From contig JABUFD010000002.1 of NCBI GenBank assembly GCA_013314735.1, forward strand, positions 1,054,001-1,118,000: 64,000 nt of DNA, in the 5' to 3' direction. Each line of letters begins with the position of its first letter. Within the stretch, counting starts at the first letter, position 1. Positions 5,343 through 23,453 of the stretch are shown here, in pieces. The translations under genes and the position numbers were made by a program. Under the pieces are notes generated by a model. The model had not been told where the DNA came from, did not search any database, and saw only the letters and a list, made by a program, of their open reading frames with translations. The DNA is from Anaerolineae bacterium. GTDB lineage: Bacteria; Chloroflexota; Anaerolineae; Anaerolineales; Anaerolineaceae.

Positions 5343-5381
5343 GTCGGATGCCCTAAAACGGGCCAACTTAGAGACCAATTC
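5343..5381 (+). ncRNA. Recurrent leader motif, copy A
   Basis: GTCGG (5343) and CCAAC (5363) form the outer helix with one C-A mismatch. ATG is the 3-nt bulge, CCC/GGG the inner helix and TAAAAC the loop. TT and AGAGACCAATTC follow. The motif lies between a terminator and the ribosome site of the small gene at 5420. The same arrangement occurs at 14112, 17982 and 23411. Confidence 0.6.
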
Positions 5382-5419
5382 AAAAAAATCACAAGGAGAA
5401 GGAAAGGAGGATAAAGAAA

Positions 5420-5542
5420 ATGGCAACCATCCTGGGGATCGGGATTGGTGCGATGGTGTTGGCATACAACGCCGTACTGCTTGTTCACGCCATGCGCAAC
5501 CGCTGGCTGGATAAGCGTTTTCGGCAGTACGTTGGACGGTAA
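5420..5542 (+). CDS. Very small membrane protein, 40 aa
   Basis: The ATG lies 10 bp after AAAGGAGG. The product MATILGIGIGAMVLAYNAVL continues LVHAMRNRWLDKRFRQYVGR: one N-terminal hydrophobic helix, then a strongly basic amphipathic tail. Its stop codon is 2 bp before the start of the SWIM-domain gene, so translation is probably coupled. No family is recognised. Copy B of the leader motif also precedes a small basic protein followed by a SWIM-type protein. Confidence 0.65.
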   Translation: MATILGIGIGAMVLAYNAVLLVHAMRNRWLDKRFRQYVGR

Positions 5543-5544
5543 TC

Positions 5545-6678
5545 ATGCCGACAACCACAACTGCCGAACAACAACAGGCCGAGCGCACAGAACGAGCGCG
5601 CGAAGCCCTGGAAAGTAATGCATTTTGCATCGTCAACAAAGCCCCCGGCCTCTGGCTGGTGCAGAACGGCGACAAGCAGCCCTACGATGTCCGCAAGGAC
5701 GCCGCAGGCCGCTGGTCGTGTACCTGCCCGGACTACCAGGGTCATAGGGGCATTATCCGGTGCAAGCACATCGAGGCCATCCGGCTTACGGTGGCCGACC
5801 AACAAGCTCAAATTCAAAAGGAGGTAAGCATGGATAATGGCAATAATTCTGATTTATGCGGTGGGTGGGTGAAGCTGTATCACCCTGCCGGCGGTGGCGT
5901 CCAGGTGACGCTGCCCGTTCCCCCTGTCTTTTTGGGGCCTTCCCAGGCGCAAGCCATGTTCACCAATGTCTCGGCGCTGATTGACGCCGGGTTCATGGTG
6001 AATCTCCCTGGCCTGGAAGAAGGCGAAAAGCGCGAAACCGTGACCCATATCGTCCGCCGGCGCAAGGCTGAGGACGGTGGCGGTTCTGTTCCGGTCATGG
6101 ATATTTATGCGGGGGGTAACTTCCGTATTCTGTCCGTGTATCTGGATGGCGACAAGCCTGATCTGGTCAACGAGTTCATTGACTTGTTCGGCCCGCTGAG
6201 CCGTTTCAAGGTGTATCCGAGCAATGCTCCCCTGGAGCGCGGCAAGGATGCCGAAACAGACCGGGAGTACGTCACCCCTGTTTCGGATCGTGGGGTTCAG
6301 CTTGTCTATAAGACAAACCCCAAGTATGACGAAGCCGAAGCTGCTGCTGCCGCCGCCGAGAAAAAGACCTACAAGGTCCCGAAGCGCATTTTCGTGCGCT
6401 TTGAACGCGGCACTGCGCCGGCCAACGGCAACGGACACACCAACGGCAACGGCCATCCGGCTCCTGCTGCCGCCCCAACGATGACGGCTGATCAAGCCCT
6501 GGCATCCCTGGGGTTCCTCCCTGACAAGTACGGGGATGGGACTTCGCTTGGTGGTGGCGACGACGAAGCAAAAACTGCCGCCGAAAAGAAAGCCTTTGAG
6601 CGCTACTTCAGCGCCGAAGGCAAGGTGCCGGCCAGCAAACAGGATTTGCGGGATTGGGTTGCGGCCCATCCTGCGTAG
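5545..6678 (+). CDS. SWIM zinc-finger protein, 377 aa
   Basis: Residues 24-81 form a SWIM-type zinc-binding domain: C59-x-C61 and C73-x-H75 within WSCTCPDYQGHRGIIRCKHI. SWIM domains bind DNA or proteins, for example in transposase- and helicase-associated proteins. Residues 105-290 form an unrecognised domain. A Gly/Asn-rich linker (NGNGHTNGNGHPA) leads to a short C-terminal helical domain (ASLGFLPDKYG to RDWVAAHPA). The Asn/Gly linker suggests flexible tethering of two DNA-metabolism modules. It precedes ssb by 135 bp. Confidence 0.6.
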   Translation: MPTTTTAEQQQAERTERAREALESNAFCIVNKAPGLWLVQNGDKQPYDVRKDAAGRWSCTCPDYQGHRGIIRCKHIEAIRLTVADQQAQIQKEVSMDNGNNSDLCGGWVKLYHPAGGGVQVTLPVPPVFLGPSQAQAMFTNVSALIDAGFMVNLPGLEEGEKRETVTHIVRRRKAEDGGGSVPVMDIYAGGNFRILSVYLDGDKPDLVNEFIDLFGPLSRFKVYPSNAPLERGKDAETDREYVTPVSDRGVQLVYKTNPKYDEAEAAAAAAEKKTYKVPKRIFVRFERGTAPANGNGHTNGNGHPAPAAAPTMTADQALASLGFLPDKYGDGTSLGGGDDEAKTAAEKKAFERYFSAEGKVPASKQDLRDWVAAHPA

Positions 6679-6693
6679 CGTAAATCAACCACT

Positions 6694-6769
6694 CCGCTTT
6701 TAAGCGTTCATCCCCAGGCCAAAGAGGAACACTCTGCGGCCTGGGAAAGCTGGAACGTTGAAAAAGCGG
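6694..6769 (+). ncRNA. Nested hairpin leader upstream of ssb
   Basis: Three co-axial helices are visible: CCGCTTTT (6694) with AAAAGCGG (6762); GCGTTC (6704) with GAACGT (6753); CCCAGGCC (6713) with GGCCTGGG (6738). The apex has AGAG/CTCT. No T-tract follows directly. It may regulate ssb translation or end the upstream transcript. Confidence 0.55.
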
Positions 6770-6813
6770 CTCAATTGCAAACCCAATTTTGATTGAAGTA
6801 AAGGAGAAAAAAT

Positions 6814-7242
6814 ATGTTTCAAAAAGTAACAGTCATCGGTCATCTTGGTCGCGATCCTGAAATGCGGTATACAAATTCCGGGCAGGCGGTCACCAACTTC
6901 TCAATTGCCACCACCCGCACCTATCCGGGTGCAGACGGCTCGCAGAAGAAGGAAACTACCTGGTTCAAAGTCAGTGTGTGGGGCAAGATGGCTGAAGCCT
7001 GCAACCAGTACTTGCACAAAGGGAGCAAGGTGCTGGTTGAGGGCCGGCTGGTGATCGATCCCGCCACCGGCGGTCCCAAAGTGTTTAAGCGCAACGACGG
7101 CAGCGCCGGCGCGTCCTTTGAGATCACCGCTGCCGAGGTGAAATTCCTCGACAGCCGGGGTGATCGCAACGACGCCGATGATGGCGCTCCTGCCGAACCG
7201 CATTCCCCCGCCGTCACCGACGACGAAGATATTCCCTTCTAG
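6814..7242 (+). CDS. ssb: Single-stranded DNA-binding protein SSB, 142 aa
   Basis: MFQKVTVIGHLGRDPEMRYT is a textbook SSB start, and the OB fold continues with TTWFKVSVWGKMAEACNQYL and GSKVLVEGRL. The protein ends in DDEDIPF, the acidic tip that recruits repair and replication partners. Length is slightly below the usual 150-180 residues because the linker is short. It coats single-stranded DNA during replication, recombination or conjugative entry. Together with the clamp, RadC-like protein and exonuclease it argues for element-encoded DNA processing. Confidence 0.95.
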   Translation: MFQKVTVIGHLGRDPEMRYTNSGQAVTNFSIATTRTYPGADGSQKKETTWFKVSVWGKMAEACNQYLHKGSKVLVEGRLVIDPATGGPKVFKRNDGSAGASFEITAAEVKFLDSRGDRNDADDGAPAEPHSPAVTDDEDIPF

Positions 7243-7248
7243 GCCAAA

Positions 7249-7319
7249 GCCGGGCAACCCGGCGATAGGCCAAACCGAACTCATCCCCCGCAGGCAGCAT
7301 ACTGCTTCACCTGCGGGGG
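7249..7319 (+). other. Two hairpins between ssb and the next operon
   Basis: GCCGGG (7249) pairs with CCCGGC (7258) inside GGCC/GGCC. CCCCCGCAGG (7285) then pairs perfectly with CCTGCGGGGG (7310). Only a weak T-poor tail (CTCTTAG) follows, so termination is possible but not certain. The ribosome site AGGAGG of the gene at 7341 follows within 15 bp. Confidence 0.6.
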
Positions 7320-7340
7320 GCTCTTAGAAGGAGGAAAACA

Positions 7341-7850
7341 ATGGGAAGTAACGGCTTTTACTTTCTCGATCCCCGGCTGACTGCTGAGGATTACGAGAAA
7401 ATGGCCGCCGAAACCGCCGGACGTAACAGTGAAATGCTGGATCGCAACGGCGGCGACCTGGATGACTGTTTTGTGTCGGCAGCATGCCACGACCTGAGTA
7501 TTCAGGTCTATCACATGCTGGCGGCGCTGGTTCGCGCCGGCGGCAAGCACCCGTTCACGGTGCTGAAAACGCTGGCCGGCGAACCGGTGAAGGCAAAGAC
7601 AGTCAATACCCGCTACGGGCTGGCCTGGATGCTCCTGGACCAGGACGACCAGTGCGCCGGCTTTGCCCCGTACAAGCCCGCTCGCGCCACAACCCTGGCA
7701 AAGAGGGGGTACATGGAAGTCGAAGAAGAACGCCCCGCTGCCGTGCGCATCATTGCCTGCGGCACGGGAATGGCGGGATTGGCCGGGGCGTACCCCGTGT
7801 ATGTCCCCGATACTCGTGAATCACGAAAAGAAGGAGGAAACAATGACTGA
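7341..7850 (+). CDS. Hypothetical protein, 169 aa
   Basis: Follows AGAAGGAGG. It is a soluble, mixed alpha/beta protein with no membrane segment and no recognised motif. Residues 40-75 (DCFVSAACHDLSIQVYHMLA) are predicted helical, and the C-terminus is charged (TRESRKEGGNND). The stop overlaps the next gene by 8 bp. It heads a four-gene overlapping operon that includes ArdC, which hints at a host-defence or DNA-entry role, though nothing in the protein shows this. Confidence 0.6.
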   Translation: MGSNGFYFLDPRLTAEDYEKMAAETAGRNSEMLDRNGGDLDDCFVSAACHDLSIQVYHMLAALVRAGGKHPFTVLKTLAGEPVKAKTVNTRYGLAWMLLDQDDQCAGFAPYKPARATTLAKRGYMEVEEERPAAVRIIACGTGMAGLAGAYPVYVPDTRESRKEGGNND

Positions 7851-8514
7851 TCGAGGGCGATATATTAGCTCCAAGCTGGTCTATCGCGGAAAAAGCCAAA
7901 TAACAAAAGCATATGGTATCCCGCTGCAAAGCGGGTTTTATGGTCCAGATGACACTCTGGAAATCCAGCCCTGTGACAAAGAGGGCAAGCGGCTCACCGG
8001 GCCGGCGACGATGAAAGTCCTCGCCGCCACCATCGGCGATCCGGTTGCCGATGCGCCCGAAAAGCAGCCTGAAAAGCGGTATTTGAGCGCCACGCTGATC
8101 TACCGCATGGAGCAGCCTTATGACGGGGATAGTCCCCGTTACGGGTGCTGCATCCCAATGGTTAACGGTGTGCGATCATCATCAGATATGGTTGATATCT
8201 GGCCCTGCGACGAAAACGGAGGTATTCACCCCGGTTTCAACGTGTCGCCGGTGCCTGTCTCTGCGTCCGTAATCCTGGAGCCGTTCAGAACCGCACCTGG
8301 TTACGGGGATGATGATGAATATGAATGGCCTGTGTGCGATGTCTGCGGCCAGCCTGTGGACCCCGATGAAGCCCATTGGGGCCACGAGAAAAACTGCGCG
8401 CATGAACTACTTGGGGTTTGTTTTTGCAACCTCAAATATCATCCTGCCTGCTGCCCGGATTGCAAGAAGAAACAGGACACAGATAAGGATGATGAAAGCG
8501 GGGTGCAAGCATGA
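7843..8514 (+). CDS. Cysteine-rich C-terminal zinc-finger protein, 223 aa
   Basis: The ATG at 7843 follows AAGGAGG inside the end of the previous gene. Residues 1-160 contain two similar segments: YISSKLVYRGKSQ...GIPLQSG...DTLEIQPCD and YLSATLIYRMEQP...CIPMVNG...DMVDIWPCDE. This points to an internal duplication. The C-terminal 50 residues hold a zinc-finger array (VCDVCGQPVD, HWGHEKNCAHE, CFCNLKYHPACCPDCKKK). The function is unknown; nucleic-acid or protein binding is plausible. It overlaps ardC by 4 bp. Confidence 0.65.
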   Translation: MTDRGRYISSKLVYRGKSQITKAYGIPLQSGFYGPDDTLEIQPCDKEGKRLTGPATMKVLAATIGDPVADAPEKQPEKRYLSATLIYRMEQPYDGDSPRYGCCIPMVNGVRSSSDMVDIWPCDENGGIHPGFNVSPVPVSASVILEPFRTAPGYGDDDEYEWPVCDVCGQPVDPDEAHWGHEKNCAHELLGVCFCNLKYHPACCPDCKKKQDTDKDDESGVQA

Positions 8515-9503
8515 CCGCAATGGCCGCAACCACCACCATGATGACCCAGCCCAAGAAGGGCTGGAAATCTCGATCAAACGAAACAGACTGGCAGGAGCAG
8601 GCTGAACAGAAGCGCAAGGCGCTGATGCAGTCCATCACGGACGCCATTGCTGCGCTGGCTGCTGAAACCGATGAAGTCCGGGCGAGTGAAACGCTGGCTC
8701 GTTACTTCAAAACGGTCAGTCAGTTTCACCGATACAGCCTGCACAACCAGATTCTCATCTGGCTCCAAAAGCCGGAAGCGACCCTGGTCGCCGGCTACCG
8801 GACCTGGCAGCAGAAATTCAATCGGTGTGTAAAGAAAGGGGAAAAGGGTATCGCTATCCTGGCCCCTCGGATTTACAAGCCGAAAGAAGATGAAGACTCC
8901 AAAGAAGGTGGTGAACGGACTTACGAAGGAGGCACGGTCCTCCTGAGTACCCTTTCGAGCGAAGAAGGCGATCAGCCGGCTCCCCGCCGGCGCATCTACT
9001 TTACGACGGTGTACGTCTTTGATGTATCCCAAACCGAGGGTGATCCTTTACCGGATGAACCCGAATGGCGGGAACGATCCAAAGACCTTGACTTTGAGCA
9101 GCGCCTTACGGCGTTTGCAGCAAGCCGGGGTATCACCGTTGAAATCGTGGATGACGATGAGATGAACGGCGCTGAAGGCCGTTCCTTTGGCGGGAAGATC
9201 CAACTACTGCCCCAATCGGGCAGCCATACATTCGTGCATGAACTGGCGCACGAACTGTATGAACATTGCAAGGCTGAGGTACGGGAGCAAACCACCCGGC
9301 AGCAGCGGGAGATCGAAGCCGATACGGCAGCACATGTTGTCTGCCAACACTTCGGCATCCCCTCCTCCAGCGCCAATTACCTGGCGCTCTGGCAGGCCGG
9401 GAAAGAGGATATCCTGGGCTGCATGGAGCGGGTCCGGGGAGTGGCTATCGAATTGATTGAAGCCATCGAAGGTTCGCACCAGCAAGAGGAGGTGCCGGCG
9501 TGA
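8511..9503 (+). CDS. ardC: ArdC-like antirestriction protein, 330 aa
   Basis: The N-terminal ArdC-type domain has its hallmark series: FHRYSLHNQILIWLQ (about 70-85), TLVAGYRTWQQKFNRCVKKG and EKGIAILAPRIYKP. The C-terminal metallopeptidase-like domain has H243-E-L-A-H247 (HELAHELYEH) and the downstream REIEADTAAHVV glutamate helix. Plasmid ArdC proteins bind single-stranded DNA and protect incoming DNA from type I restriction. The gene starts and ends with 4-bp overlaps inside its operon. It is one of the clearest mobile-element markers here. Confidence 0.9.
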   Translation: MTAMAATTTMMTQPKKGWKSRSNETDWQEQAEQKRKALMQSITDAIAALAAETDEVRASETLARYFKTVSQFHRYSLHNQILIWLQKPEATLVAGYRTWQQKFNRCVKKGEKGIAILAPRIYKPKEDEDSKEGGERTYEGGTVLLSTLSSEEGDQPAPRRRIYFTTVYVFDVSQTEGDPLPDEPEWRERSKDLDFEQRLTAFAASRGITVEIVDDDEMNGAEGRSFGGKIQLLPQSGSHTFVHELAHELYEHCKAEVREQTTRQQREIEADTAAHVVCQHFGIPSSSANYLALWQAGKEDILGCMERVRGVAIELIEAIEGSHQQEEVPA

Positions 9504-9970
9504 TAACAACTCTACGCCCTCTTTTTGACTACGAAGAAAGTAACTCAAACACGTTGAGCAACCTGGCTGCTTACCTGTGCTGCCTGTACCCTCACTGCCG
9601 CGTGTCCGTCAAAGATACCCCGATTAGCGGCCTCTCTGACGAAAACCAGGACCGGTTTGCGTCATGGGAAGCCGTGATCGCATCTGGTCAATCGTACATG
9701 ACCGGCAAAAGCATGACCCGTCAAGCATATCTGCGAAAGTACACCTCCCGGATTAGCTCGAAGTGGCAGCAGGACGCCTATATCTGGGCGCTCCAAAACC
9801 CCGGCAAGACCCTGGTGGTGGAAATCAAAGACAGCCTGCGGGATGAGATCTGGTGGATTGGAAAGCGTGGCGAGTGTGTCCACTTTCTATTGCCCCACCA
9901 TGATCACGGCGGCGAGAAAGCGTGGGTATCCCGCAATGGGAAATCCCGTGTTCTCGTCAACGTTGATTGA
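9500..9970 (+). CDS. Hypothetical protein, 156 aa (GTG start)
   Basis: The GTG start overlaps the ArdC stop (GTGA), giving tight coupling. The protein is soluble, with no recognised family. Notable stretches are SRISSKWQQDAYIWALQNPG and CVHFLLPHHDHGGEKAWVS; the latter has three close histidines that might bind metal. Its position after ardC suggests an accessory role in DNA establishment, by context only. Confidence 0.55.
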   Translation: MITTLRPLFDYEESNSNTLSNLAAYLCCLYPHCRVSVKDTPISGLSDENQDRFASWEAVIASGQSYMTGKSMTRQAYLRKYTSRISSKWQQDAYIWALQNPGKTLVVEIKDSLRDEIWWIGKRGECVHFLLPHHDHGGEKAWVSRNGKSRVLVNVD

Positions 9971-9981
9971 GTCAACTGAAC

Positions 9982-10013
9982 AAGCTCCCTGCCCTTTACC
10001 GGGCGGGGAGCTT
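9982..10013 (+). terminator. 13-bp hairpin ending the ardC operon
   Basis: AAGCTCCCTGCCC (9982) pairs with GGGCGGGGAGCTT (10001) with one T-G pair, followed by a short T-containing tail (TTACAAATT). It is a likely but weak intrinsic terminator ahead of the clamp gene. Confidence 0.6.
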
Positions 10014-10053
10014 TACAAATTCAAATTTCAACTTCAAAGAAGGAGGAAAACAG

Positions 10054-11223
10054 ATGGGCATCAAGTTTGCCAAAGACCCCCTGCTTGCCGCCCTTAAAAC
10101 GGCGGCGGCATTCGCCGGCAAGTTTATGGTCGAAAAAGAGGGGTTGCCCCTTGAGCAGATGACGCTTATGCGCCTGATGTTCAACGGGGCCAGCCTCATC
10201 ATTGAGGCAACGAACCTGGAAATGGGTATCCATATGGAAATCCCGGCTCCTGGAAGCAGCGAAACCCGCTCCTACCAGCTGCCGGCCAAAACACTGCTTG
10301 ACGCCGTGAGCGCCAGCGGTGATGAGATCGAGCTTGTCCACGAAAAAGCTGGACTGGGCGTCAAAACCCAAACCGGTAAATCCACAATCAAGAACGTTGG
10401 GGGGGAACTGATCCCCCTGATTGACTGCGGCGCAGCCGCGACAACCACGACTCACTTTACCTGCGCTGAAATGGCAAAGGCGATTAACATGGTCGCTTTT
10501 GCTGCGGCAAAGGAAGATGAGGCGCGTCCGTATCTATCTGGAGTCCGCATCATGCCCGAACATGGTGGCAGCGTATCTTTTGTGGCTGCCGACGGTGTTC
10601 GGATGGCGGTGTACACAACCCGAACAACAACGCCAGAGGCGTTCTCAACGGCGTTCACGCTTCCGATTGCATCTGTACCGGCCATTGCCAACTGCCTGGC
10701 AATCCAGCATGGCAACGTGGCCCTTACTGTTATCAGCAACCGGGCGATCTTCCATTGGAACTGGGATGAAAACGAAAACAACTTTAACGGGTATGTTTTC
10801 GCGCTGCGCCAGGCCGATAACTTCCCGGACTGGCATGCGCTCGTCCCCCGCACCTGCAAAACGAAACTTACGTTTGATGGTGCGCTGGCAGCGGCATTGA
10901 AAACCGCCCGTGTCATCGCCCGCGAATCGGATGAACTTCCAAAAGTGACTCTGAAGATCAACGACTTGAAAGCAGTCGTTGAGTCGGAAGTGGCCGAAGT
11001 GGGGGCAACCTCAACCGAAGTCACACCGATCAGTGTCGAGGGAATGAACGGGGTGGAAGTGTCGTTCAATGTCAATCTCGTTCCCCTTGCACAGATTGGT
11101 GCATCGGGGACCGTGATTGTTGGCCTGAACCCTCCACAGGAGGGCGCACCGGGTCCGATAATCTGGAAACTGCCGTCTGTTGAGGGATGGCAATACCTGC
11201 TCATGCCCCTTCGCAGCTTTTAG
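10054..11223 (+). CDS. dnaN: DnaN-like DNA polymerase III sliding clamp, 389 aa
   Basis: The ATG at 10054 follows AGAAGGAGG; the longer open frame upstream runs through a hairpin and is rejected. Length matches bacterial beta clamps (about 370). The three-domain pattern is visible: domain 2 begins FTCAEMAKAINMVAFAAAKE and continues YLSGVRIM, close to the DnaN pattern of a helix followed by LxGVxL. The C-terminus YLLMPLRSF matches the conserved YxxMPMRL ending. It would encircle DNA and hold polymerase. No polymerase subunit is present here, so it may recruit the host polymerase or organise the nearby exonuclease and SSB. Confidence 0.8.
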   Translation: MGIKFAKDPLLAALKTAAAFAGKFMVEKEGLPLEQMTLMRLMFNGASLIIEATNLEMGIHMEIPAPGSSETRSYQLPAKTLLDAVSASGDEIELVHEKAGLGVKTQTGKSTIKNVGGELIPLIDCGAAATTTTHFTCAEMAKAINMVAFAAAKEDEARPYLSGVRIMPEHGGSVSFVAADGVRMAVYTTRTTTPEAFSTAFTLPIASVPAIANCLAIQHGNVALTVISNRAIFHWNWDENENNFNGYVFALRQADNFPDWHALVPRTCKTKLTFDGALAAALKTARVIARESDELPKVTLKINDLKAVVESEVAEVGATSTEVTPISVEGMNGVEVSFNVNLVPLAQIGASGTVIVGLNPPQEGAPGPIIWKLPSVEGWQYLLMPLRSF

Positions 11224-11232
11224 GAGGCAAGC

Positions 11233-11664
11233 ATGTCAGAAGCAACCGAACACAAGCGCATGTTGCCGGTCCTTAAACTGGCCGGCAAATTGGACATCGC
11301 CTCGAACCCTGAACCCGCCGCAATCTACGAGCGAGGATCAGGGGGCTTCCAAATCTGGTGTACGCTCAACAACCACCCGCAAGGGTGGGAAGGGCTGCTC
11401 ATGTCCGCAGGGGCTTTCTCAAAGCCCTGCGAATATGTTGCCTCAGTGTCCTGGGGATGGGAAGGTGACAAAATCACCCACCTGCGCCTTTGCACAGAAG
11501 CGTATGCCTGCCGGGATAGGGACACGAACAAAGGCGTGTACACCGCGCCGGCGTCCTACCGGAACCGCCCGCTGGATGTGTTCTGGGCAAAGGAACAAAC
11601 CTTTGCCCTGTTCCAACAGGCCGGCGTCCCCATGCCTGAAATCCGGGTCGTGGAGCAGGAATGA
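11233..11664 (+). CDS. Hypothetical protein, 143 aa (paralog of next gene)
   Basis: Begins 9 bp after the clamp stop and shares its transcript. It is similar along its length to the next gene: LKLAGKLDIASNP versus MQIARRLDVYNNP; GGFQIWCTLNNHPQGWEG versus SGFQIAATPDDHPAGWDR; DKITHLRLCTEA versus DEITHLLLTTAA; NRPLDVFWAKEQ versus NRPADLLWARQK; and GVPMPEIRV at the end. This indicates a tandem duplication. Function unknown. Confidence 0.65.
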   Translation: MSEATEHKRMLPVLKLAGKLDIASNPEPAAIYERGSGGFQIWCTLNNHPQGWEGLLMSAGAFSKPCEYVASVSWGWEGDKITHLRLCTEAYACRDRDTNKGVYTAPASYRNRPLDVFWAKEQTFALFQQAGVPMPEIRVVEQE

Positions 11665-12080: not shown

Positions 12081-12088
12081 CCGGGCCA

Positions 12089-12116
12089 ACAAGGCGGGTT
12101 GCAAAGCCCGCCTTGT
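12089..12116 (+). terminator. 10-bp hairpin after the clamp operon
   Basis: ACAAGGCGGG (12089) pairs with CCCGCCTTGT (12107), loop TTGCAAAG. There is no strong T-tract, so it could be partial termination or transcript stabilisation. Confidence 0.55.
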
Positions 12117-12144
12117 GGCTCATCAATAAGAAGGAGGATACAAG

Positions 12145-12501: not shown

Positions 12502-12515
12502 AAAAGGAGCGGGGG

Positions 12516-13996: not shown

Positions 13997-14069
13997 TGCG
14001 GGGTAGAGCAGCGGCAAGCTCACCAGGTTCATACCCTGGAAGGCGTTGGTTCGAGTCCAACCCCCGCTA
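13997..14069 (+). tRNA. tRNA-Met (CAT), initiator-like acceptor
   Basis: A full cloverleaf is visible: acceptor TGCGGGG/CCCCGCT, D-stem GAGC/GCTC with an 8-nt loop, anticodon stem CCAGG/CCTGG with loop TTCATAC (anticodon CAT), variable AAGGC, and T-arm GTTGG/CCAAC with loop TTCGAGT. The discriminator A is followed by CC then T, so the final A of CCA is not encoded. Position 1-72 is a T-T mismatch; lack of a pair there is an initiator feature, but the anticodon stem lacks three consecutive G-C pairs. A lysidine-modified tRNA-Ile is a less likely alternative. Confidence 0.85.
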
Positions 14070-14073
14070 CCTG

Positions 14074-14103
14074 AAGCCGGTCATCCGATTGGATGCCGGT
14101 TTT
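14074..14103 (+). terminator. Intrinsic terminator after the tRNA
   Basis: CCGG-(T)-CATCC pairs with GGATG-CCGG around GATT, followed by TTTT at 14100. It lies immediately upstream of leader motif B. Confidence 0.75.
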
Positions 14104-14111
14104 CAAATTAA

Positions 14112-14147
14112 GTCGGACGCCCGTTAGGGCTGATCCAGAAACCAATC
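14112..14147 (+). ncRNA. Recurrent leader motif, copy B
   Basis: GTCGG (14112) pairs with CTGAT (14130) through three Watson-Crick and two G-T pairs. ACG is the bulge, CCC/GGG the inner helix, GTTA the loop. CC and AGAAACCAATC follow. The outer 3' strand differs from the other copies, yet pairing is kept. Confidence 0.6.
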
Positions 14148-14184: not shown

Positions 14185-14370
14185 ATGAACACCAATACAA
14201 CCCTTATTCGCGGTATTCGCCGGGAAGAGAAGCGCGCAAAGCGCGCAAAGGGAGCCGAGCGCGATTTCAGCCTCGCCAACGAACGCGAGGAATTGAAACG
14301 TGCTGAGATGGAGCGCCGCCAGGCACGGCGCAAGGAGAAGGAATGGTTGCTGTCAGAAACCTGCTTCTAG
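14185..14370 (+). CDS. Small highly basic, Arg/Glu-rich protein, 61 aa
   Basis: Follows ACAAGGAG. The sequence from residue 8 on is a charged helix (RGIRREEKRAKRAKGAERDF; LKRAEMERRQARRKEKE), possibly a coiled coil or nucleic-acid binder. It overlaps the SWIM-type gene by 28 bp, so the two are translationally linked. No family recognised. Confidence 0.55.
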   Translation: MNTNTTLIRGIRREEKRAKRAKGAERDFSLANEREELKRAEMERRQARRKEKEWLLSETCF

Positions 14371-15680: not shown

Positions 15681-15704
15681 GCTATTTTATATAAGGAGGA
15701 TACA

Positions 15705-17321: not shown

Positions 17322-17340
17322 TAAACCTTTTTAGAGACGT

Positions 17341-17367
17341 ACAGGAGGGCCTAATAAGCCCTCCTGT
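17341..17367 (+). terminator. Perfect 10-bp hairpin
   Basis: ACAGGAGGGC (17341) pairs with GCCCTCCTGT (17358), loop CTAATAA, then TGTTTC. It ends the 15705-17321 operon. Confidence 0.7.
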
Positions 17368-17387
17368 TGTTTCAGAAAGCGAGGCTT

Positions 17388-17756
17388 ATGCGAAAAAATA
17401 AACGCAAATCGCTGATGGATTATGAGTCCGAGAGGCGGCGCTTTGTTGCCAGGTTTGAGCGGTACGGCAGAAGGCCACCCATTCCCCACGAGCCTGACGC
17501 CAGCCTTGTAACCTTGCTCCTGTCGCGTGTCCGGGATGTTGAAACAGGGGCGTTTATCTCACACCATCTCTGGCTTGTTGAGGATAAAAACCTGAAAGCG
17601 GTATCACCCTTGAAACCTGGGGATCGGATTGAGTTCGACGCACTGGTGCGGCGTTACCGAAAGGGATACCGGGGGGAAAAGTCGTATATCTTTGGCCGGC
17701 CACCAGACTTTGACTACGGGCTTGTTCACCCATCCAAAATTACTGTCTGCCGCTGA
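17388..17756 (+). CDS. Small basic protein, possible OB-fold, 122 aa
   Basis: I choose the ATG at 17388; an upstream TTG lies inside the terminator stem. The N-terminus is strongly basic (MRKNKRKSLMDYESERRRFV). The middle reads VTLLLSRVRDVETGAFISHH and PLKPGDRIEFDALVRRYRKG YRG, a strand pattern typical of OB-like nucleic-acid-binding domains that I have seen in element-encoded proteins. The fold is inferred; no partner is known. Confidence 0.5.
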   Translation: MRKNKRKSLMDYESERRRFVARFERYGRRPPIPHEPDASLVTLLLSRVRDVETGAFISHHLWLVEDKNLKAVSPLKPGDRIEFDALVRRYRKGYRGEKSYIFGRPPDFDYGLVHPSKITVCR

Positions 17757-17974
17757 AAGCGCAGCAGTTGTCAGAACATTGAATCCGCACCGCTAACCGC
17801 GAGGTTGGCGGTGTCAATTTGTTGTTCTGGCAAAAACAGAACCCAAAGTGCAGGCTGCGTAAAGCGCACAGGCAGTTCGTGACTGCGCCCTGCCACTTAA
17901 AAATCACATGCGGAAACGCCATTTATTGATGCCTGAGAAGGGTCAATAACAAAGGCTGACCGTGCGTGATTTTT
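17757..17974 (+). ncRNA. Candidate structured noncoding RNA (multi-branched inverted repeats)
   Basis: No coding frame. Three structures follow each other. (1) CAGAACA (17772)/TGTTCTG (17822) enclose TTGA/TCAA and CACCGC-AACC/GGTT-GCGGTG capped by GCGA. (2) AAGTGCAGG (17845)/CCTG-C-CACTT (17889) form a three-way junction with arms TGCG/CGCA and GCAGT/ACTGC. (3) AAAAATCAC (17899)/GTGATTTTT (17966) enclose GCG-GAAA-CGC and TTATTGA/TCAATAA. The third could terminate transcription. The rest looks too elaborate for a simple terminator. Confidence 0.5.
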
Positions 17975-17981
17975 GAATCCA

Positions 17982-18023
17982 GTTGGCTACCCTGCGAAAG
18001 CAGGGCCAACGTAGAAACCAATC
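17982..18023 (+). ncRNA. Recurrent leader motif, copy C
   Basis: GTTGG (17982) pairs with CCAAC (18006). CTA is the bulge. CCCTGC/GCAGGG is a six-pair inner helix capped by GAAA. GT and AGAAACCAATC follow. This is the best-formed copy. It lies 23 bp upstream of the start at 18046. Confidence 0.65.
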
Positions 18024-18045
18024 GAAATTCATAGAAGGAGGAAAC

Positions 18046-18495
18046 ATGCAAACGATGGAGAAATACCAGAAGAATCCCGCCCTGGTGATTTTAGATCGCC
18101 AGGTGGGAAAAATCGCGGATGAGCAGCTTTGGGCGATTTTCGCCCATATCCAGTATGCTGCTGCCCGCCGTGTATCCGCTGCCCTGGGCTATCTGCCGTT
18201 CACCTGGCCGCTGACGCCGGTGGATATGCAGCTAAATACCCAGGTAGCGTCAGATGTTTATGCGCTGCTGGCAAAAGCCGGCATCCCGGCTGGCCGCAGC
18301 CAGCCAGACGAAACCCGCCTGGCTGAATATCTGCGGGCAATCAACATTCTGCTCACCGAGGTCTATTTCGTTGATGAAAAACACCTCCAATATGCCCTGT
18401 TCTGCCTGAAAAACTATATGCGGATTGGTCCGCGATGGCTAAAACAGGCAGCAGGCATCGTTGAAGCCGAGGTTGAAGTCGAGGTGACGGCATGA
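18046..18495 (+). CDS. Hypothetical helical protein, 149 aa
   Basis: The ATG at 18046 follows AGAAGGAGG, which sets the start. Apart from a Pro-rich centre (GYLPFTWPLTPVDMQ) it is helical and ends in acidic repeats (VEAEVEVEVTA). It overlaps the DNA methyltransferase gene by 4 bp, so it may assist or regulate that enzyme. No family recognised. Confidence 0.6.
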   Translation: MQTMEKYQKNPALVILDRQVGKIADEQLWAIFAHIQYAAARRVSAALGYLPFTWPLTPVDMQLNTQVASDVYALLAKAGIPAGRSQPDETRLAEYLRAINILLTEVYFVDEKHLQYALFCLKNYMRIGPRWLKQAAGIVEAEVEVEVTA

Positions 18496-19394
18496 CGCTC
18501 ACCAGCCTGGTTTCTTACCCCAATCGGGGTGAGGGCGGGCGCTCCGATTTTCGGGGCAACTGCTCACCCCGGCTGGTGCAAGACTTGATTGAACACTACA
18601 AGCCCCGTCTGTTCTATGACCCGGCCATCGGGTCTGGAACGAGCCGGGATGTAGCGCAATCCATGAAAGTCCCTGGCTTTTTCAGCGACCTGGCGCAAGG
18701 GTACAACGTGCTTGAAAGTGAACCGCCATACTCCGGGTTTGATATGGCCTTCTGGCACCCGCCGTACTGGGACATTATCAAGTATTCTGGCCCAGGCGGT
18801 CAGTGGGGGGGAGCCGGCAATCCTGGCGACCTCTCACTCATCCAGGATTACGGCGAGTTCCTCAAGGCGTTGAATGAGGCAACCTTTCGTATCTACGAAA
18901 CCCTAAAGCGCGGCGGGCGACTGGCCGTGCTGGTTGGTGACGTGAGAAGGAAAGGGACGCTTTATCCGATCCAGCGCGACATGCGCTGGTACGGGACACC
19001 TGATGCCTTCATCGTAAAGGCCCAGCACAACATGGTATCCAATAATCGGACGTACAGCGGTGGGAATTTTGTGGCGATTGTCACCGAATACCTGATCGTG
19101 ACCAAAAAGGCTGATGCCTGGATTGTTCCGCTGCGCGTGACCGAGCCAAAGCAAATGGACACCCGCCGTTGGGCTGGCGCGACCTGGCAAAGCCTGGTGT
19201 ACGCCGGCCTGGAAAACTTGGGCGGCGAAGCGGACCTGCCGGCGCTCTATGAGTGCTTGCAGGAACACAAACGGGTCCAGCAATCCAGCGCCAACGGCGT
19301 GGATTGGCAGGCGATTGTGCGTCGGGAATTACAGACCCGCCCGCACTTTCGCAATATTGAACGTGGCCGGTGGTGCCTGGTGCAGCCGGCGTAA
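18492..19394 (+). CDS. Orphan DNA methyltransferase, 300 aa
   Basis: An AdoMet-binding motif appears as FYDPAIGSGTSRD (residues 41-53) and a catalytic motif IV variant as HPPYW (about 92-96), the order of an alpha/gamma-like amino-methyltransferase. RLAVLVGDVRRKG and FVAIVTEYLIVTKK fit later strands. The C-terminal 60 residues look like a small helical DNA-recognition domain. HPPYW instead of N/DPPY is unusual but seen in related phage enzymes. No restriction partner is adjacent, so it likely protects the element or regulates it. Confidence 0.75.
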   Translation: MTLTSLVSYPNRGEGGRSDFRGNCSPRLVQDLIEHYKPRLFYDPAIGSGTSRDVAQSMKVPGFFSDLAQGYNVLESEPPYSGFDMAFWHPPYWDIIKYSGPGGQWGGAGNPGDLSLIQDYGEFLKALNEATFRIYETLKRGGRLAVLVGDVRRKGTLYPIQRDMRWYGTPDAFIVKAQHNMVSNNRTYSGGNFVAIVTEYLIVTKKADAWIVPLRVTEPKQMDTRRWAGATWQSLVYAGLENLGGEADLPALYECLQEHKRVQQSSANGVDWQAIVRRELQTRPHFRNIERGRWCLVQPA

Positions 19395-19410
19395 AAAAGA
19401 AAGGAGAAAC

Positions 19411-19956
19411 ATGGAACTCGAAAAGGTTATCCAAAGCCTGGAAGCTGGAAACTTCCAGGTGGTGCCAATCAGTAACTGCGGTTGCCGCTTTGATTGGCAT
19501 ATCGAGGAGGGTGACTTGGTGGATGGCTTCGAGGAGGACGACTGCTATGAGGGCTTCGCCCTCATGGTGGACGAAACCCTTGTCGCTGAGCACACGCGAT
19601 ACAGCCCTCTGATGCTTTATGTGAACGGGATGTCCGAAACTAACATCCCCGCAGAAATCCAGAAGGCAATGCGCTCTCCTGCCCTCCAGCGATGGGAAAC
19701 GGGCAATCCGGTGGTGCACGAAGAACGCCGGCGGGAAGCTCTGATCGCCTTCCTGATGAAAGGCGAGTATGAGCTTGACCGCGACGACGAGCGGTATTTT
19801 GCCAACGAATACACCGTGATCTTGCGGGAACTGCCCGATGGTGCGTCCGTCCCTGTCACCCGCGAGGAAGCCAAAGCATGGGCTGATGACTTCCTGTATC
19901 GCGGCGACTCCTCGGCCCAAGCCTTTGTGGGCTTTCGGCTGGAAACCAATCAATAA
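19411..19956 (+). CDS. Hypothetical acidic protein, 181 aa
   Basis: The ATG at 19411 follows AAAGGAG; the open frame upstream is inside the methyltransferase gene. The N-terminus (MELEKVIQSLEAGNFQVVPI) leads to a very acidic stretch (EEGDLVDGFEEDDCYEGFAL). No family recognised. The acidic, compact nature would fit a DNA mimic but there is no direct evidence. It is 14 bp ahead of the pentapeptide-repeat gene. Confidence 0.55.
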   Translation: MELEKVIQSLEAGNFQVVPISNCGCRFDWHIEEGDLVDGFEEDDCYEGFALMVDETLVAEHTRYSPLMLYVNGMSETNIPAEIQKAMRSPALQRWETGNPVVHEERRREALIAFLMKGEYELDRDDERYFANEYTVILRELPDGASVPVTREEAKAWADDFLYRGDSSAQAFVGFRLETNQ

Positions 19957-19970
19957 AAAAGGAGAAAACA

Positions 19971-20822
19971 ATGCCTAATTTGATTAAGTGCGAAACGAAT
20001 CCCGTCCTCGACCCGTACCACAAGGCTGCGGGTCAAGCGTCTTTCACCATTCTGAGTATCTTTCAGAACGGTGATTACCAGGTTGACCAGGAGTACGACG
20101 ACGGGGTTGCTCCGGTTGATGAAGCCAATGGGCTGACGCTCACCTATGCCCTGTTCGAGCGCCCGGACGAAAAAGCTGCCCGTGCCTACCTGGAAAGCCA
20201 GGAGGCGGTTGCCCTGGTCGAGCGAATCCACGCCGGTCATGGGAAAACCCTGTACTACAACAACGTCGTCGGCACACTGACCGAGGACGCTGAGGCTGCC
20301 ATCCAGGAACTTCTGGATGCACTGGCGGCCCTGCCGGAAAGCAAGGTGGCCCTTTGGACCGCTGGCGACTGGGTGGGTAACACGAACGACGAGGAAATCG
20401 GTATCGGCGCTTTGACTACTGACGCGGAGATAGCGGCCCTGGTTGAAAAGCTGGACACCGATGCCCGTGCTGAAAACATCATTCTCGCCGGGACCGAGGA
20501 ATACTTGGTCGAGCGGCGGCGTTTGGCGCGTCAGAACCTGGCGGGTGCTGACCTGCGCAGCGTTAACCTGGTCGGTGCCAGCTTGTCCGGTGCTGACCTG
20601 TCAAGCTGCGACCTGCGCGGTGTAAATCTGACCGGTGCCGATCTGTCTGGCACGAACTTAACCGAGGCCAGACTGTCCGGGGCCATCCTGTGCGGGGCCA
20701 ACCTGGAGAATGCCGACCTGTCTGATGCAGATCTTGAGAATGCCGACCTGACCGGGGCCAATCTGGAGAATGCCCTAATCTCCGGGGCAAAGGTGACTGG
20801 TACACTCCTGGCCGACGACTAA
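19971..20822 (+). CDS. Pentapeptide-repeat protein, 283 aa
   Basis: Residues 185-278 are about 18 pentapeptide repeats of the A(D/N)LxX type (LAGADLRSVNLVGASLSGAD and so on to GANLENALISG), which fold as a right-handed beta-helix. The N-terminal 180 residues are an acidic helical domain of unknown type with segments YAPD-like strands and ALLDALAALPE-like helices. Repeat proteins such as Qnr and MfpA mimic DNA and shield gyrase. Here, among anti-restriction genes, a DNA-mimic role is plausible but unproven. It is followed by a clear terminator. Confidence 0.75.
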   Translation: MPNLIKCETNPVLDPYHKAAGQASFTILSIFQNGDYQVDQEYDDGVAPVDEANGLTLTYALFERPDEKAARAYLESQEAVALVERIHAGHGKTLYYNNVVGTLTEDAEAAIQELLDALAALPESKVALWTAGDWVGNTNDEEIGIGALTTDAEIAALVEKLDTDARAENIILAGTEEYLVERRRLARQNLAGADLRSVNLVGASLSGADLSSCDLRGVNLTGADLSGTNLTEARLSGAILCGANLENADLSDADLENADLTGANLENALISGAKVTGTLLADD

Positions 20823-20846
20823 ACGCTGGCGAACACTGTCTTATCC

Positions 20847-20886
20847 AATCCCTCGCAGGTGGCCTGTCTGCCTGTGAGGGATTTAT
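20847..20886 (+). terminator. Intrinsic terminator
   Basis: AATCCCTCGCAGG (20847) pairs with CCTGTGAGGGATT (20871) with one G-T pair, then TATTT. It separates the pentapeptide gene from the exonuclease gene. Confidence 0.75.
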
Positions 20887-20907
20887 TTCAAATCACAAGG
20901 AGGATAC

Positions 20908-21576
20908 ATGAACGATAAACTTTTGATCTTTGACATCGAAACCGCGCCTGACCTGGGTGCGGTGGCTGCGCTGCCGGAACCGAAAGCGCCGGGAAATCTG
21001 AAAGACCCCGAAAAAGTCGCTGCGGCGATTGCCGAGAAGAAGGCCGAGCAGCTTGCAAACGCTGCCCTGGACCCTGATACGGCAAACATCACCGCAATTG
21101 GCCTGGCGGTTGTGGATGTTCGCGACCCCTCGTTGGATGCAGACAACATCTGCGCCTATCTGGTGGGTGACGAAGAAACCCCAACCGAGGCTACCCTGCT
21201 GACGAAGTTCTGGCACACGATGGTGCAAACTGGCGGTTACGCTGCCGGCTACAACATCATCGGCTTTGACCTGCCGATGCTCCAGCGCCGGAGCTTTGCC
21301 CTCGCAGTCAAACCTGGTCTGTTGGGGCTGCCGGCAATCTCGCCGGCGAAGTATCGAACACAACCCATCCTCGACCTGATGGGCGTTCTCTATAACTGGG
21401 ATCGCTCGCGGGGTTTGAAGTGGGTCTGCAAGCGGTACGGCATCCCCAATCCGCTGCCTGATCTGGATGGCAGCATGGTGGGCGAAATGGATCGGGCGAT
21501 GCTCCGCAAATACGTCGCCAACGATGTCAACCTGACCATCCAGCTTTACCGCCGGATGCAGGGCGTGTATTTCTAA
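20908..21576 (+). CDS. DEDDy 3'-5' exonuclease (PolB-exonuclease-like), 222 aa
   Basis: Motif Exo I is F8-D9-I-E11-T, Exo II is GYN116IIGFD121LPML and Exo III is Y202-V-A-N-D206, the Tyr-x3-Asp form of the DEDDy class. Residues 28-55 are an Ala/Lys/Glu-rich insertion after Exo I. No polymerase domain is present, and the length fits the stand-alone predicted 3'-5' exonuclease family related to family-B polymerase proofreading domains. It may proofread for a host polymerase docked on the element clamp, or trim recombination intermediates. Confidence 0.85.
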   Translation: MNDKLLIFDIETAPDLGAVAALPEPKAPGNLKDPEKVAAAIAEKKAEQLANAALDPDTANITAIGLAVVDVRDPSLDADNICAYLVGDEETPTEATLLTKFWHTMVQTGGYAAGYNIIGFDLPMLQRRSFALAVKPGLLGLPAISPAKYRTQPILDLMGVLYNWDRSRGLKWVCKRYGIPNPLPDLDGSMVGEMDRAMLRKYVANDVNLTIQLYRRMQGVYF

Positions 21577-21596
21577 AATAAAAGGAGGAAAGAAAC

Positions 21597-22508
21597 ATGT
21601 TTTACCTTGAATATCAATATCGTTTCGCTAGCAACGATAAGTTGCGAGCGACAATTGGTTTTCTCACCGAAGGCGGAATCACGTTTGAGGAAGCAGACCG
21701 CCGGTTGAAGGCAGTCTGGCCCAACGGCCAGTTCAATACTCAATGGACTGATATTCCCGTGCTGGACATCAGCGACGGGTATCAGCACGAGTTTGTCGGT
21801 TTCTCGGATCAGCCGGCATTGCAGAATACGGACTTGCCACTGACCCTGCGTGATTTTGTCGAACAGGCAGAACGGGCTGCGGTTCTCACAGGCCGCCGGT
21901 ATCAGTTCGATCTTTCGATGGAGAATGGGTCGGACGAAATCCTGAACTCGTTACCGTCAAAGATCACCCTCCGGCTTACAGGGGCCGAGATCGAATGGGT
22001 GCTGGAACAGATGGCACTTGTAGAAAAAAGCGTGGACGAAGAAACCGGGAGCCTGGTCGTCCGGGAAATCGTTGTTCGGCCACCTGCCGAACAGATCCAT
22101 GCCCTGTTCCCCAGTCTCCCGAATGACGTGTTCGCCCAGCTTGTTATCGAAGCTGGGTACGCATACATTCGAGCGCACCCCTTTGCTTCTTGCGCTGCCG
22201 ACGGGGAGACGATCTCCGTCACCAGCGAAGAACTACGGCAGGCGCTGACGAAAGGGGACGACCTCCCCGCTCCTGTGTCGGTTGATGCGGCTTTCGTCGA
22301 CTTGTTGTTCCCAACGGCAAGCGAAATCATCGAATATGCCCAAAAGTATGTTGGCGATAAACCCTGGCCGGAGGATGATTGGGTGCAAGGCAGCCGCTTT
22401 GCCCTGAACATCTGGCTGCGGGATGGACAGAAACGGATTACGTTTTACACGCTGGAAGCCAACGATGAAATTGACACAAGTAAGGGTGTCGGTTTTGTTG
22501 TGCCGTAA
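21597..22508 (+). CDS. Hypothetical protein, 303 aa
   Basis: Starts 6 bp after AAAGGAGGAAAG, 20 bp behind the exonuclease gene, so probably co-transcribed. Soluble, alpha/beta; no membrane segment. Visible stretches include FLTEGGITFEEADRRLKAVW and LFPSLPNDVFAQLVIEAGYA. No family recognised. A 13-bp terminator follows. Confidence 0.55.
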   Translation: MFYLEYQYRFASNDKLRATIGFLTEGGITFEEADRRLKAVWPNGQFNTQWTDIPVLDISDGYQHEFVGFSDQPALQNTDLPLTLRDFVEQAERAAVLTGRRYQFDLSMENGSDEILNSLPSKITLRLTGAEIEWVLEQMALVEKSVDEETGSLVVREIVVRPPAEQIHALFPSLPNDVFAQLVIEAGYAYIRAHPFASCAADGETISVTSEELRQALTKGDDLPAPVSVDAAFVDLLFPTASEIIEYAQKYVGDKPWPEDDWVQGSRFALNIWLRDGQKRITFYTLEANDEIDTSKGVGFVVP

Positions 22509-22538
22509 CCCGTAGCGCCACCAAACACAAACCAAATT

Positions 22539-22569
22539 GCTACACCCTGCCGGCTGGCGGGGTGTAGCG
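22539..22569 (+). terminator. 13-bp hairpin
   Basis: GCTACACCCTGCC pairs with GGCGGGGTGTAGC around GGCT. The tail is CATAAATAAA, so termination would depend on hairpin strength. Confidence 0.65.
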
Positions 22570-22592
22570 CCATAAATAAAAGGAGAAAAAAG

Positions 22593-22826
22593 ATGGCAAA
22601 ACCATTAACTGTCCAGCGCCTCCGCGAAATCATCGAATCCTTGAAAGAAGAACTCAAGGAAATTGATGACACAATTGAATACGCCCAGTTGGGCGAGGTG
22701 GCGTTGGGGCTGTACGCCGACCTTTCGATTGCATCTTCCTCTCTGGGGAAGGCCATTGAGGTGCTGGAATTTCAGTTGGGGGAACTGGAAGACGGCGGCA
22801 GTCTCGATGAAGAGAATATCGTTTAA
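22593..22826 (+). CDS. Small coiled-coil protein, 77 aa
   Basis: Preceded by AAAAGGAG. Heptad-like spacing of Leu/Ile is visible in LREIIESLKEELKEIDDTIE and in ASSSLGKAIEVLEFQLGELE, so a two-helix coiled coil is likely. Net negative. No family recognised. The next gene starts 8 bp later. Confidence 0.55.
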   Translation: MAKPLTVQRLREIIESLKEELKEIDDTIEYAQLGEVALGLYADLSIASSSLGKAIEVLEFQLGELEDGGSLDEENIV

Positions 22827-22834
22827 GGGCTACT

Positions 22835-23272
22835 ATGAAAAAGTCACTCTTTGTTATTCTATTCAATATCCGAACACAAACAGGGCGTAGCGACATATTC
22901 CTCTACCACGGCGCGCACATCGATAGTTCGGCGGCCATGAACGCCGCTAGAGAACATATTGCGTCGCTGGGATGGGAAATGAAGAACCAGGTTAGCGCAC
23001 AGGAATTGAAGCACGACGAACTAATAGTTGCGGCCTGGTTTGAACGTCCAGGAGGACTATACACTTGCGTCTTTCAATTGCCGGCGCAAAAAGGCGGCTG
23101 GTGTAATGGGGCATACTTCGCCACCATTACGGCAAGCTCGCCGGAAAATGCTAAGGTCGAAGCGCGAAAAGCGTTTAGACTGCCCCCAAACGTGAGGGCA
23201 AATTTCTTAGCGGTTGAACGGGTCGCGGACGCTATTGTCCACGAAGTCTGTCCCAGGGAGATTATTGTGTAA
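22835..23272 (+). CDS. Hypothetical protein, 145 aa
   Basis: The start MKKSLFVILFNIRTQTG could look like a weak signal sequence, but it lacks a clear cleavage site and reads more like a beta strand. The remainder is alpha/beta (GRSDIFLYHGAHIDSSAAMN; ENAKVEARKAFRLPPNVRAN). No ribosome site of normal strength is seen, so translation may depend on the upstream gene. No family recognised. Confidence 0.5.
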   Translation: MKKSLFVILFNIRTQTGRSDIFLYHGAHIDSSAAMNAAREHIASLGWEMKNQVSAQELKHDELIVAAWFERPGGLYTCVFQLPAQKGGWCNGAYFATITASSPENAKVEARKAFRLPPNVRANFLAVERVADAIVHEVCPREIIV

Positions 23273-23290
23273 GTTTCAACCCCAATTTCA

Positions 23291-23319
23291 TTCCCCGCCT
23301 GCTCATAACAGGCGGGGAA
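23291..23319 (+). other. Perfect 11-bp hairpin
   Basis: TTCCCCGCCTG pairs with CAGGCGGGGAA around CTCATAA. It is the first of two stop-like structures after 23272. Confidence 0.6.
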
Positions 23320-23336
23320 TATCTCATCAGGGCAAT

Positions 23337-23376
23337 AAACAAAAGGCACAAACAACCAGGTTTGTGTTTTTTGTTT
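23337..23376 (+). terminator. Intrinsic terminator
   Basis: CACAAAC (23347) pairs with GTTTGTG (23360), extended by AAACA/TGTTT, with a TTTTTT run. It precedes leader motif D. Confidence 0.8.
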
Positions 23377-23410
23377 GCTGCTCTGTGAAAGCCGAGCGCA
23401 AAGAAATTAA

Positions 23411-23453
23411 GTTGGATGCCTTGCGGAAGCGGGGCCAAAGTAGAAACCAATTC
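23411..23453 (+). ncRNA. Recurrent leader motif, copy D
   Basis: GTTGG (23411) pairs with CCAA(A) (23435). ATG is the bulge. CCTTGC/GCGGGG is the inner helix with two T-G pairs, capped by GGAA. GT and AGAAACCAATTC follow. The inner stem differs from copy C but stays paired. Confidence 0.65.

Follow-up and report, generated by a model that had tools for sequence, protein, structure and literature searches.

A recurrent hairpin and conserved box at gene-block boundaries of a rare Chloroflexota element

The motif and its copies in two elements

The window analysed here is a stretch of 64,000 nt from an Anaerolineae bacterium (GenBank assembly GCA_013314735.1, contig JABUFD010000002.1, positions 1,054,001 to 1,118,000). 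It contains DNA of a genetic element, probably mobile to judge from its scattered presence and its gene content, in which a small bulged hairpin followed by the box AGARACCAATY was found at four places. The element encodes a T2SSE-family ATPase (best NCBIfam match Tad-type, below the cut-off of that model), a subtilase adjoining an AAA ATPase, SSB, an ArdC-N protein, a beta-clamp-like protein, RadC, a DNA methylase, a PolB-type exonuclease and a DUF6094-helicase protein with an intein-like insert; neither an integrase nor a relaxase was identified in it. Positions given without a locus label refer to the window. The four copies are as follows:

5343..5367, + strand: copy 1 hairpin, GTCGG-ATG-CCC..GGG-CCAAC, one C-A mismatch
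5370..5380, + strand: copy 1 box, AGAGACCAATT
14112..14134, + strand: copy 2 hairpin
14137..14147, + strand: copy 2 box, AGAAACCAATC
17982..18010, + strand: copy 3 hairpin, full 5+6 bp with GAAA loop
18013..18023, + strand: copy 3 box, AGAAACCAATC
23411..23439, + strand: copy 4 hairpin, one G-A mismatch
23442..23452, + strand: copy 4 box, AGAAACCAATT

Inspection of all four places confirmed the hairpin starts given by the initial annotation (5343, 14112, 17982 and 23411), together with a 3-nt bulge on the 5' side and an inner CC/GG helix in each copy, and a box starting exactly two bases past the outer arm in four of four. The 5-bp outer helix that had been described is complete in copies 2 and 3 (5/5 pairs) but contains a mismatch in the other two: C-A within GTCGG/CCAAC of copy 1 and G-A within GTTGG/CCAAA of copy 4. 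Across copies the inner stem ranges from 3 to 6 pairs, with pairing retained, and the spacing between the arms from 13 to 21 nt. The fixed 3' part, GGGCYRANNYAGARACCAATY, was matched four times in the 64-kb window and never in 100 shuffles (0.00 expected). The four copies are real and did not arise by chance.

Distances from box to ATG were 39, 37, 22 and 27 nt for copies 1 to 4, close to the 23–39 bp annotated. Two-gene operons had also been assigned to the copies; the gene pairs exist, but they are mere heads of longer gene strings.

A collinear element was found in genome G022, which belongs to another genus of the same family (record JAKQJC010000001.1), and there the motif occupies all four orthologous sites with order and position kept. 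The DNA common to both extends from about L031:15389 through at least window position 28,891, in pieces mostly 75–89% identical. Box-to-ATG distances at sites 1 to 4 of G022 were 41, 26, 22 and 26 nt. When the hairpin arrangement was defined as an outer helix of at least four of five pairs, a 3-nt bulge and an inner helix of at least three pairs, the rule was satisfied by all eight copies of the two elements (7–12 pairs), compared with 4.1% of random window positions, although the eight copies are not eight independent draws, their arms being partly conserved sequence. Within the 12-nt box region, 46 of 48 positions were identical between orthologues. The box is nearly invariant across both paralogues and orthologues, while the flanks largely differ between sites.

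The four copies annotated were all real but not the complete set, as two extra, degenerate copies were recognised:

3554..3597, + strand: site 5, degenerate copy with hairpin GCCCTG..CAGGGC and box AGAAAACAATC
L031:18902-18957, upstream of the window: site 0, degenerate copy, with its G022 counterpart at L033:11838-11890

Site 5 is present in both elements and sits within a noncoding stretch; its G022 counterpart (L029:13688-13741) carries the exact box. The sole frame behind it is an 80-codon GTG frame, broken in G022, and there is no conserved gene directly downstream. At site 0, where the L031 copy is recognisable solely through alignment with G022, a gene starts about 85 nt downstream. The supposed tie of the motif to a start codon was not borne out by these two sites, and the lack of a conserved gene at site 5, together with the degenerate copies, speaks against a plain translation element. 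When all 12 copies were aligned together, the degenerate ones fell out of register, and these alignments were left out of the counting.

A noncoding stretch at 3857-4320 contains repeated hairpins around GTACCAAGA..AGAAAAC and is 87–89% identical to G022, above most other shared pieces, with no Rfam match. It is possibly a further structured RNA or an origin of transfer or replication. The noncoding stretch neighbouring the gene of a 377-aa protein had no match in plasmids (window 3050-4330) or phages (3050-5420); a match in genome G101 falls inside a gene and was set aside as chance. The 377-aa protein itself had no match in plasmids or phages.

Boundary units and transcription

The motif closes a larger unit consisting of a tRNA or tRNA-like fold (at most sites), a long and often terminator-like hairpin, the motif hairpin and the box. 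The tRNA-type structures upstream of the copies were absent from the initial annotation. The upstream parts of the units were located as follows:

5218..5262, + strand: tRNA-like fold ahead of copy 1 with an imperfect acceptor-like stem, a small arm and a T-arm (5240-5256, loop TTCAAGC)
5271..5337, + strand: terminator-like hairpin with U-tract, immediately ahead of copy 1
13997..14071, + strand: tRNA-Met (CAT) before copy 2, called by covariance model and ARAGORN
14077..14103, + strand: terminator-like hairpin and short U-tract between the tRNA and copy 2, U-tract interrupted in G022
17847..17897, + strand: tRNA-like fold ahead of copy 3, a three-way junction with a T-arm-like hairpin (loop TTCGTGA)
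17902..17974, + strand: long terminator-like hairpin with U-tract, ahead of copy 3
23328..23384, + strand: long hairpin ahead of copy 4, with a U-tract inside it
23374..23402, + strand: alternative hairpin TTTGC..GCAAA between the long hairpin and copy 4

A true tRNA-Met precedes copy 2 in both elements, whereas the other tRNA-like folds were not called as tRNA by either the Rfam model or ARAGORN. A canonical T-arm lies ahead of site 0 in both elements and ahead of site 5 in G022 alone. The T-arm before copy 3 fails the strict test (5 bp with a TTCR loop, a definition chosen after the cases had been seen) in the window and passes it in G022, where the loop is TTCGAGG. Less than 200 nt upstream, a strict T-arm was found at five of six sites in G022 and three of six in the window element; within the same distance, 2.4% and 1.7% of random positions had one, respectively. 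No strict T-arm was found on the + strand of 43 kb of flanking DNA.

In G022, folding of the structure that precedes site 0 gives a four-armed cloverleaf. This tRNA-like cloverleaf (L033:11640-11750) has a long third arm, and ARAGORN makes no call for it. The 23 bases of the site 0 T-arm, searched in five genomes with two mismatches allowed, matched at sites 0 and 5 alone. This gives no indication of an attachment (att) site remnant from a host tRNA, and the att-site idea was rejected.

The statement that every copy directly follows a terminator or terminator-like hairpin could be upheld in part: long hairpins lie upstream, but at copy 4 the U-tract hairpin is about 40 nt upstream, with a possible hairpin in between. 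This alternative hairpin overlaps the 3' arm of the long one, and one of its pairs is T-A in the window and C-G in G022, both sides having changed. Terminator-like matches overall numbered 30, compared with 25.4 in shuffles.

Sigma70-like promoters were scanned for in both elements. On the + strand, the 200 nt ahead of each of the six sites contained no match, nor did the surroundings of site 0, with a scan that can miss real promoters. A plausible promoter was located near the head of the array:

2273..2302, + strand: sigma70-like match with extended -10 TATAAT, the sole match in window 2200-6000

Shuffles of the region 2200-6000 gave a mean of 2.7 matches against this one. Its -10 region is conserved in G022, and it is followed by a leader hairpin and then a terminator-like hairpin at 2371-2418. 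Between 5000 and 24900 the only + strand match, at 11133, lies inside a gene. The G022 locus L030 contains four + strand matches, none of them in the 200 nt ahead of a copy; three are in long open frames, and the fourth, at 4822, is about 800 nt behind copy 2 and outside frames of at least 100 codons. Because no match lies near the six sites, the copies are likely reached by read-through from upstream, as far as a scan of this kind can indicate. This would require that terminators leak, that antitermination operates or that a promoter of an unrecognised type exists.

Distribution and gene content

A covariance model was built from the eight copies (four from the window, four from G022). The initial annotation had proposed that such a model be searched against Chloroflexota genomes; its matches were convincing in the own genome (G000), G022 and G162, and nothing else convincing emerged. 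Among 147 family genomes (E ≤0.05), matches occurred in five genomes: four copies in G000, four in G022, one in G162, and weak ones in G037 and G137. Among 400 order genomes (E ≤0.02) there were four genomes, G037 and G382 weak, and among 396 class genomes (E ≤0.05) three, G902 and G964 weak; the family, order and class sets overlap. The weak matches in G037, G137, G382, G902 and G964 (23–29 bits) lie within the noise; four stretches of viral contigs reach 32.5 bits with the same model. G162 carries a third, fragmentary element on a 5-kb contig that is 87–98% identical to the G022 element and includes copy 3. The best weak match, in G037, lies about 240 nt ahead of an integrase gene; it is a possible degenerate copy with no inner helix and outer arms pairing at four of five positions by eye, and it was not counted.

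Pattern searches gave a similar picture. A structural pattern matched in 12 of 101 genomes, with the box behind it in G022 alone besides the own genome. A strict pattern matched 19 stretches among 84,980 species genomes; the hairpin is present in three from JAKQJC, which hold four copies, and in one from JAKQFH, while the other 15 were judged chance (14 without a hairpin and one, L059, at the minimum of the rule). In viral contigs the strict pattern matched once, with the hairpin absent. A looser pattern matched at least 80 viral stretches, many of them resembling, by eye, repeated phage coding sequence; L091, the only one of the 80 listed that fits the arrangement, was also judged chance. In the 4.09-Mb host genome AGARACCAATY itself had 17 matches, compared with none in the reversed control. 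Thirteen of the 17 lie outside the four copies and were rejected, 12 for want of the hairpin arrangement and L001 for reaching it just at the minimum of 7 pairs, under a rule for which about 4% of random positions qualify. A related gene module in G026 (48% identity) has no motif. Within the reach of the searches made, the motif belongs to one rare element type.

Individual genes were followed as well. The ArdC-N protein had no match among viral contigs. The 149-aa first gene behind copy 3 was found in the own genome alone among 400 phylum genomes; G022, which encodes this gene, cannot have been part of that sample. The first gene behind copy 2 was examined for its composition:

14185..14370, + strand: 61-aa Arg/Lys-rich protein, conserved in G022

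This protein had no convincing match in Pfam (first 54 residues), PHROGs (best E 0.07) or NCBIfam. Its composition alone makes it a speculative candidate for an RNA binder or antitermination partner, of a kind which we take to resemble the arginine-rich antiterminators. In the four genomes scanned for NusG-domain genes, the element yielded none, and the only one of G022 lies elsewhere in that genome. The own genome has such genes outside the element, the strongest match being at C12:131688, with others at C11:269721 and C11:332987.

Several further features were observed in this DNA. The DUF6094 methyltransferase-helicase protein at 25336-29712 is split by an intein-like LAGLIDADG homing endonuclease insert. 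The AAA ATPase adjoining the subtilase protease (L032:11191-14597) scores 253 bits with the IteA anti-phage model, the cut-off of which is 510, and the two may form a candidate defence pair carried by the element. A Type III restriction-modification pair (PADLOC models) occupies 29855-34194 on the minus strand, at or past the right part of the element. Rfam 15 cmscan at the gathering level reported only tRNA, a fluoride riboswitch (47324-47385, outside the motif region) and a group II intron in L030, and none of these at the motif; in E-value mode up to 5, nothing was found at the motif hairpins in window 5200-23600.

Possible roles of the motif

The reading that we favour, tentatively and with somewhat less than even confidence, is that the motif is a transcribed cis-acting RNA element marking the internal boundaries of a long polycistronic transcript in a Chloroflexota mobile element; processing would be of the tRNA type, and a factor would read the structured 5' end. 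It starts from the layout of the units, their conservation in a second element and the absence, by scan, of a consensus promoter near the copies. From these we infer that the motif acts as RNA, that the transcript is long and processed, and that a factor binds the box. Each boundary would run from the tRNA or tRNA-like fold (most sites) over the long hairpin and the motif hairpin to a single-stranded box AGARACCAATY, with a Shine-Dalgarno sequence and a gene block directly downstream at four of six sites. Processing enzymes would cut the tRNA-type fold and the A/U-rich linker, and the long hairpin would shield or terminate the upstream RNA. The following segment would then begin with the motif hairpin as its structured 5' end, and a sequence-specific factor would bind the box.

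Several results are consistent with an RNA of this kind, and on sequence grounds the motif likely has RNA structure. A stem of variable length with pairing kept would be odd for a protein site on double-stranded DNA. Predicted folding energies of the leaders were -72 to -99 kcal/mol, compared with a control mean of -61 and a best control of -94. The recurrent structured leader of the initial annotation is supported to the extent that the sites are conserved in another genus, the hairpin can form in every copy and the scan detected no sigma70-like promoter in the 200 nt upstream. Its evidence for compensatory change was not upheld: CCCTGC/GCAGGG versus CCTTGC/GCGGGG reflects two one-sided G-U changes, and a single two-sided pair change was found over eight sequences, copy 2 having C-G in the window and U-A in G022. 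Further homologs were thus found, but significant covariation was not. When the outer arms were permuted whole among the copies, pairing was as good in 25% of shuffles. Pairwise alifold was dropped as proof of structure, control windows scoring alike.

A number of observations weigh against the favoured reading. The covariation test was not significant, 123 of 500 shuffles scoring as well (eight sequences, low power), and two-sided changes numbered nine in four whole leaders (2.25 each), compared with a mean of 2.17 in 58 control windows. The hairpin arms are identical between orthologues at 95 of 116 positions, and the 120 nt upstream at 404 of 500; since the arms drift like the flanks while 46 of 48 box positions are kept, the box is the best-supported functional part. 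At site 4 a tRNA-like fold is missing, and the T-arm test in its strict form is failed by sites 3 and 5 of the window. T-arm-like matches number 8 per element on the minus strand, compared with 5 and 8 on the + strand, so that their position is notable and their number is not. A terminator scan limited to loops of 3–8 called none of the four long hairpins, and the term "terminator-like" accordingly rests on folding and inspection by eye. In L029:12200-19900 of G022 the promoter scan had no match at its threshold and missed even the conserved TATAAT head promoter; it can therefore miss others. Finally, no processing enzyme or RNA-binding protein linked to the motif was identified, and the reading draws on sequence analysis.

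Among known arrangements, tRNA-punctuated transcripts are similar in having tRNA or tRNA-like folds between gene blocks; here a single true tRNA is present, the others being minimal or extended tRNA-like folds, and a recurring motif follows. No such leader was found described in open-licence papers on structured RNAs of Chloroflexi, on processive antitermination or on promoters of leading regions. By gene company the nearest described motif seen is STAXI (PMC2864571), which is likewise structured and recurrent and has genes for SSB, antirestriction proteins and integrases as neighbours; whether it acts as RNA or as single-stranded DNA is discussed as unsettled. It differs in structure, consisting of two or three repeated pseudoknots with UUCG loops, whereas the present motif is a single bulged hairpin with a single-stranded box and no Rfam match.

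Antitermination would account for the same units in another way, as the hairpin and box would be loaded onto RNA polymerase, alone or with a small basic protein of the element, so that the next operon terminator is passed and each copy re-arms the complex. HK022 put acts by itself, lambda N works with nut, and pLS20 ConAn1 works with conAn2. Although we regard this reading as unlikely, it would suit an extended gene array on a single strand that holds terminator-like hairpins internally and has one plausible promoter (2273-2302), the conserved 61-aa basic protein encoded first behind copy 2, and a degenerate copy (site 0) ahead of a gene block leading towards Tad-type genes. A bipartite RNA/protein system is known for conjugation operons with many internal terminators, and for the pLS20-type conAn (PMC8955417) the similarity extends to a mobile-element operon with internal terminators and a small protein encoded beside the RNA element. 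HK022 put (PMC9378689) resembles the motif as a compact structured RNA that precedes extended gene blocks containing terminators. As described there, put comprises two stem-loops of about 70 nt downstream of early promoters, and conAn (compared by description only) combines the ConAn1 protein and conAn2 RNA at the operon start, whereas the motif is one hairpin with no promoter found within 200 nt upstream and recurs past each terminator-like hairpin (PMC8955417, PMC9378689). The 61-aa protein also lacks a convincing family match, and the element lacks a NusG-domain gene. A study of Tn916 is said to offer a further precedent for antitermination in conjugation operons; for an antitermination relay we know of none. 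A bolder version, which we consider quite improbable, would make the units an RNA relay past terminators in a Chloroflexota element of conjugation type: a tRNA-like fold and terminator would close each block, and a nut-like signal read by the basic protein of copy 2 would re-arm the polymerase, uniting tRNA mimicry and antitermination in one module.

That the motif is promoter or operator DNA also appears unlikely. It would then be a double-stranded site for an unusual sigma factor or activator, or a single-stranded promoter used on entry into the recipient, as in Frpo of F-like plasmids. With no sigma70-like match near the copies another mode of initiation is conceivable, copy 1 has hardly any DNA between U-tract and motif, and both arms are kept in sequence as well as in pairing. 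The spacing between the arms, however, varies from 13 to 21 nt, and a hairpin of 7–12 pairs is too small to present both a -35 and a -10. The cargo (SSB, ArdC-N, RadC, DNA methylase) resembles plasmid leading regions with Frpo, a folded element upstream of SSB and anti-restriction genes (PMC11541004). Compared by that description only, Frpo presents a -35 and a -10, whereas no such sigma70-like pair lies within 200 nt upstream of the motif copies (PMC11541004).

A translational or autoregulatory operator, in which a protein or small RNA of the element would bind hairpin and box and control initiation 22–41 nt downstream, is distinctly unlikely. The constant place ahead of the Shine-Dalgarno sequence at sites 1 to 4 of both elements and a nearly fixed, probably single-stranded box would agree with it, but site 5 has no conserved gene, the gap at site 0 is about 85 nt, and the + strands of the two elements share no sequence complementary to the box when up to one mismatch is allowed. 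It is very improbable that these are plain intergenic hairpins, of the usual kind that stabilises mRNA 5' ends downstream of usual terminators, multiplied by duplication inside the element, since the arms do drift at the flank rate but the box is near-invariant in paralogues and orthologues despite largely different flanks.

If the boundary units are transcribed and functional, as the favoured reading of an RNA mark at internal boundaries would have it, they would constitute a regulatory or processing signal of large Chloroflexota mobile elements. One repeated module would then unite tRNA mimicry, terminator-like hairpins and a conserved leader, and the six sites in two elements provide a ready test set.

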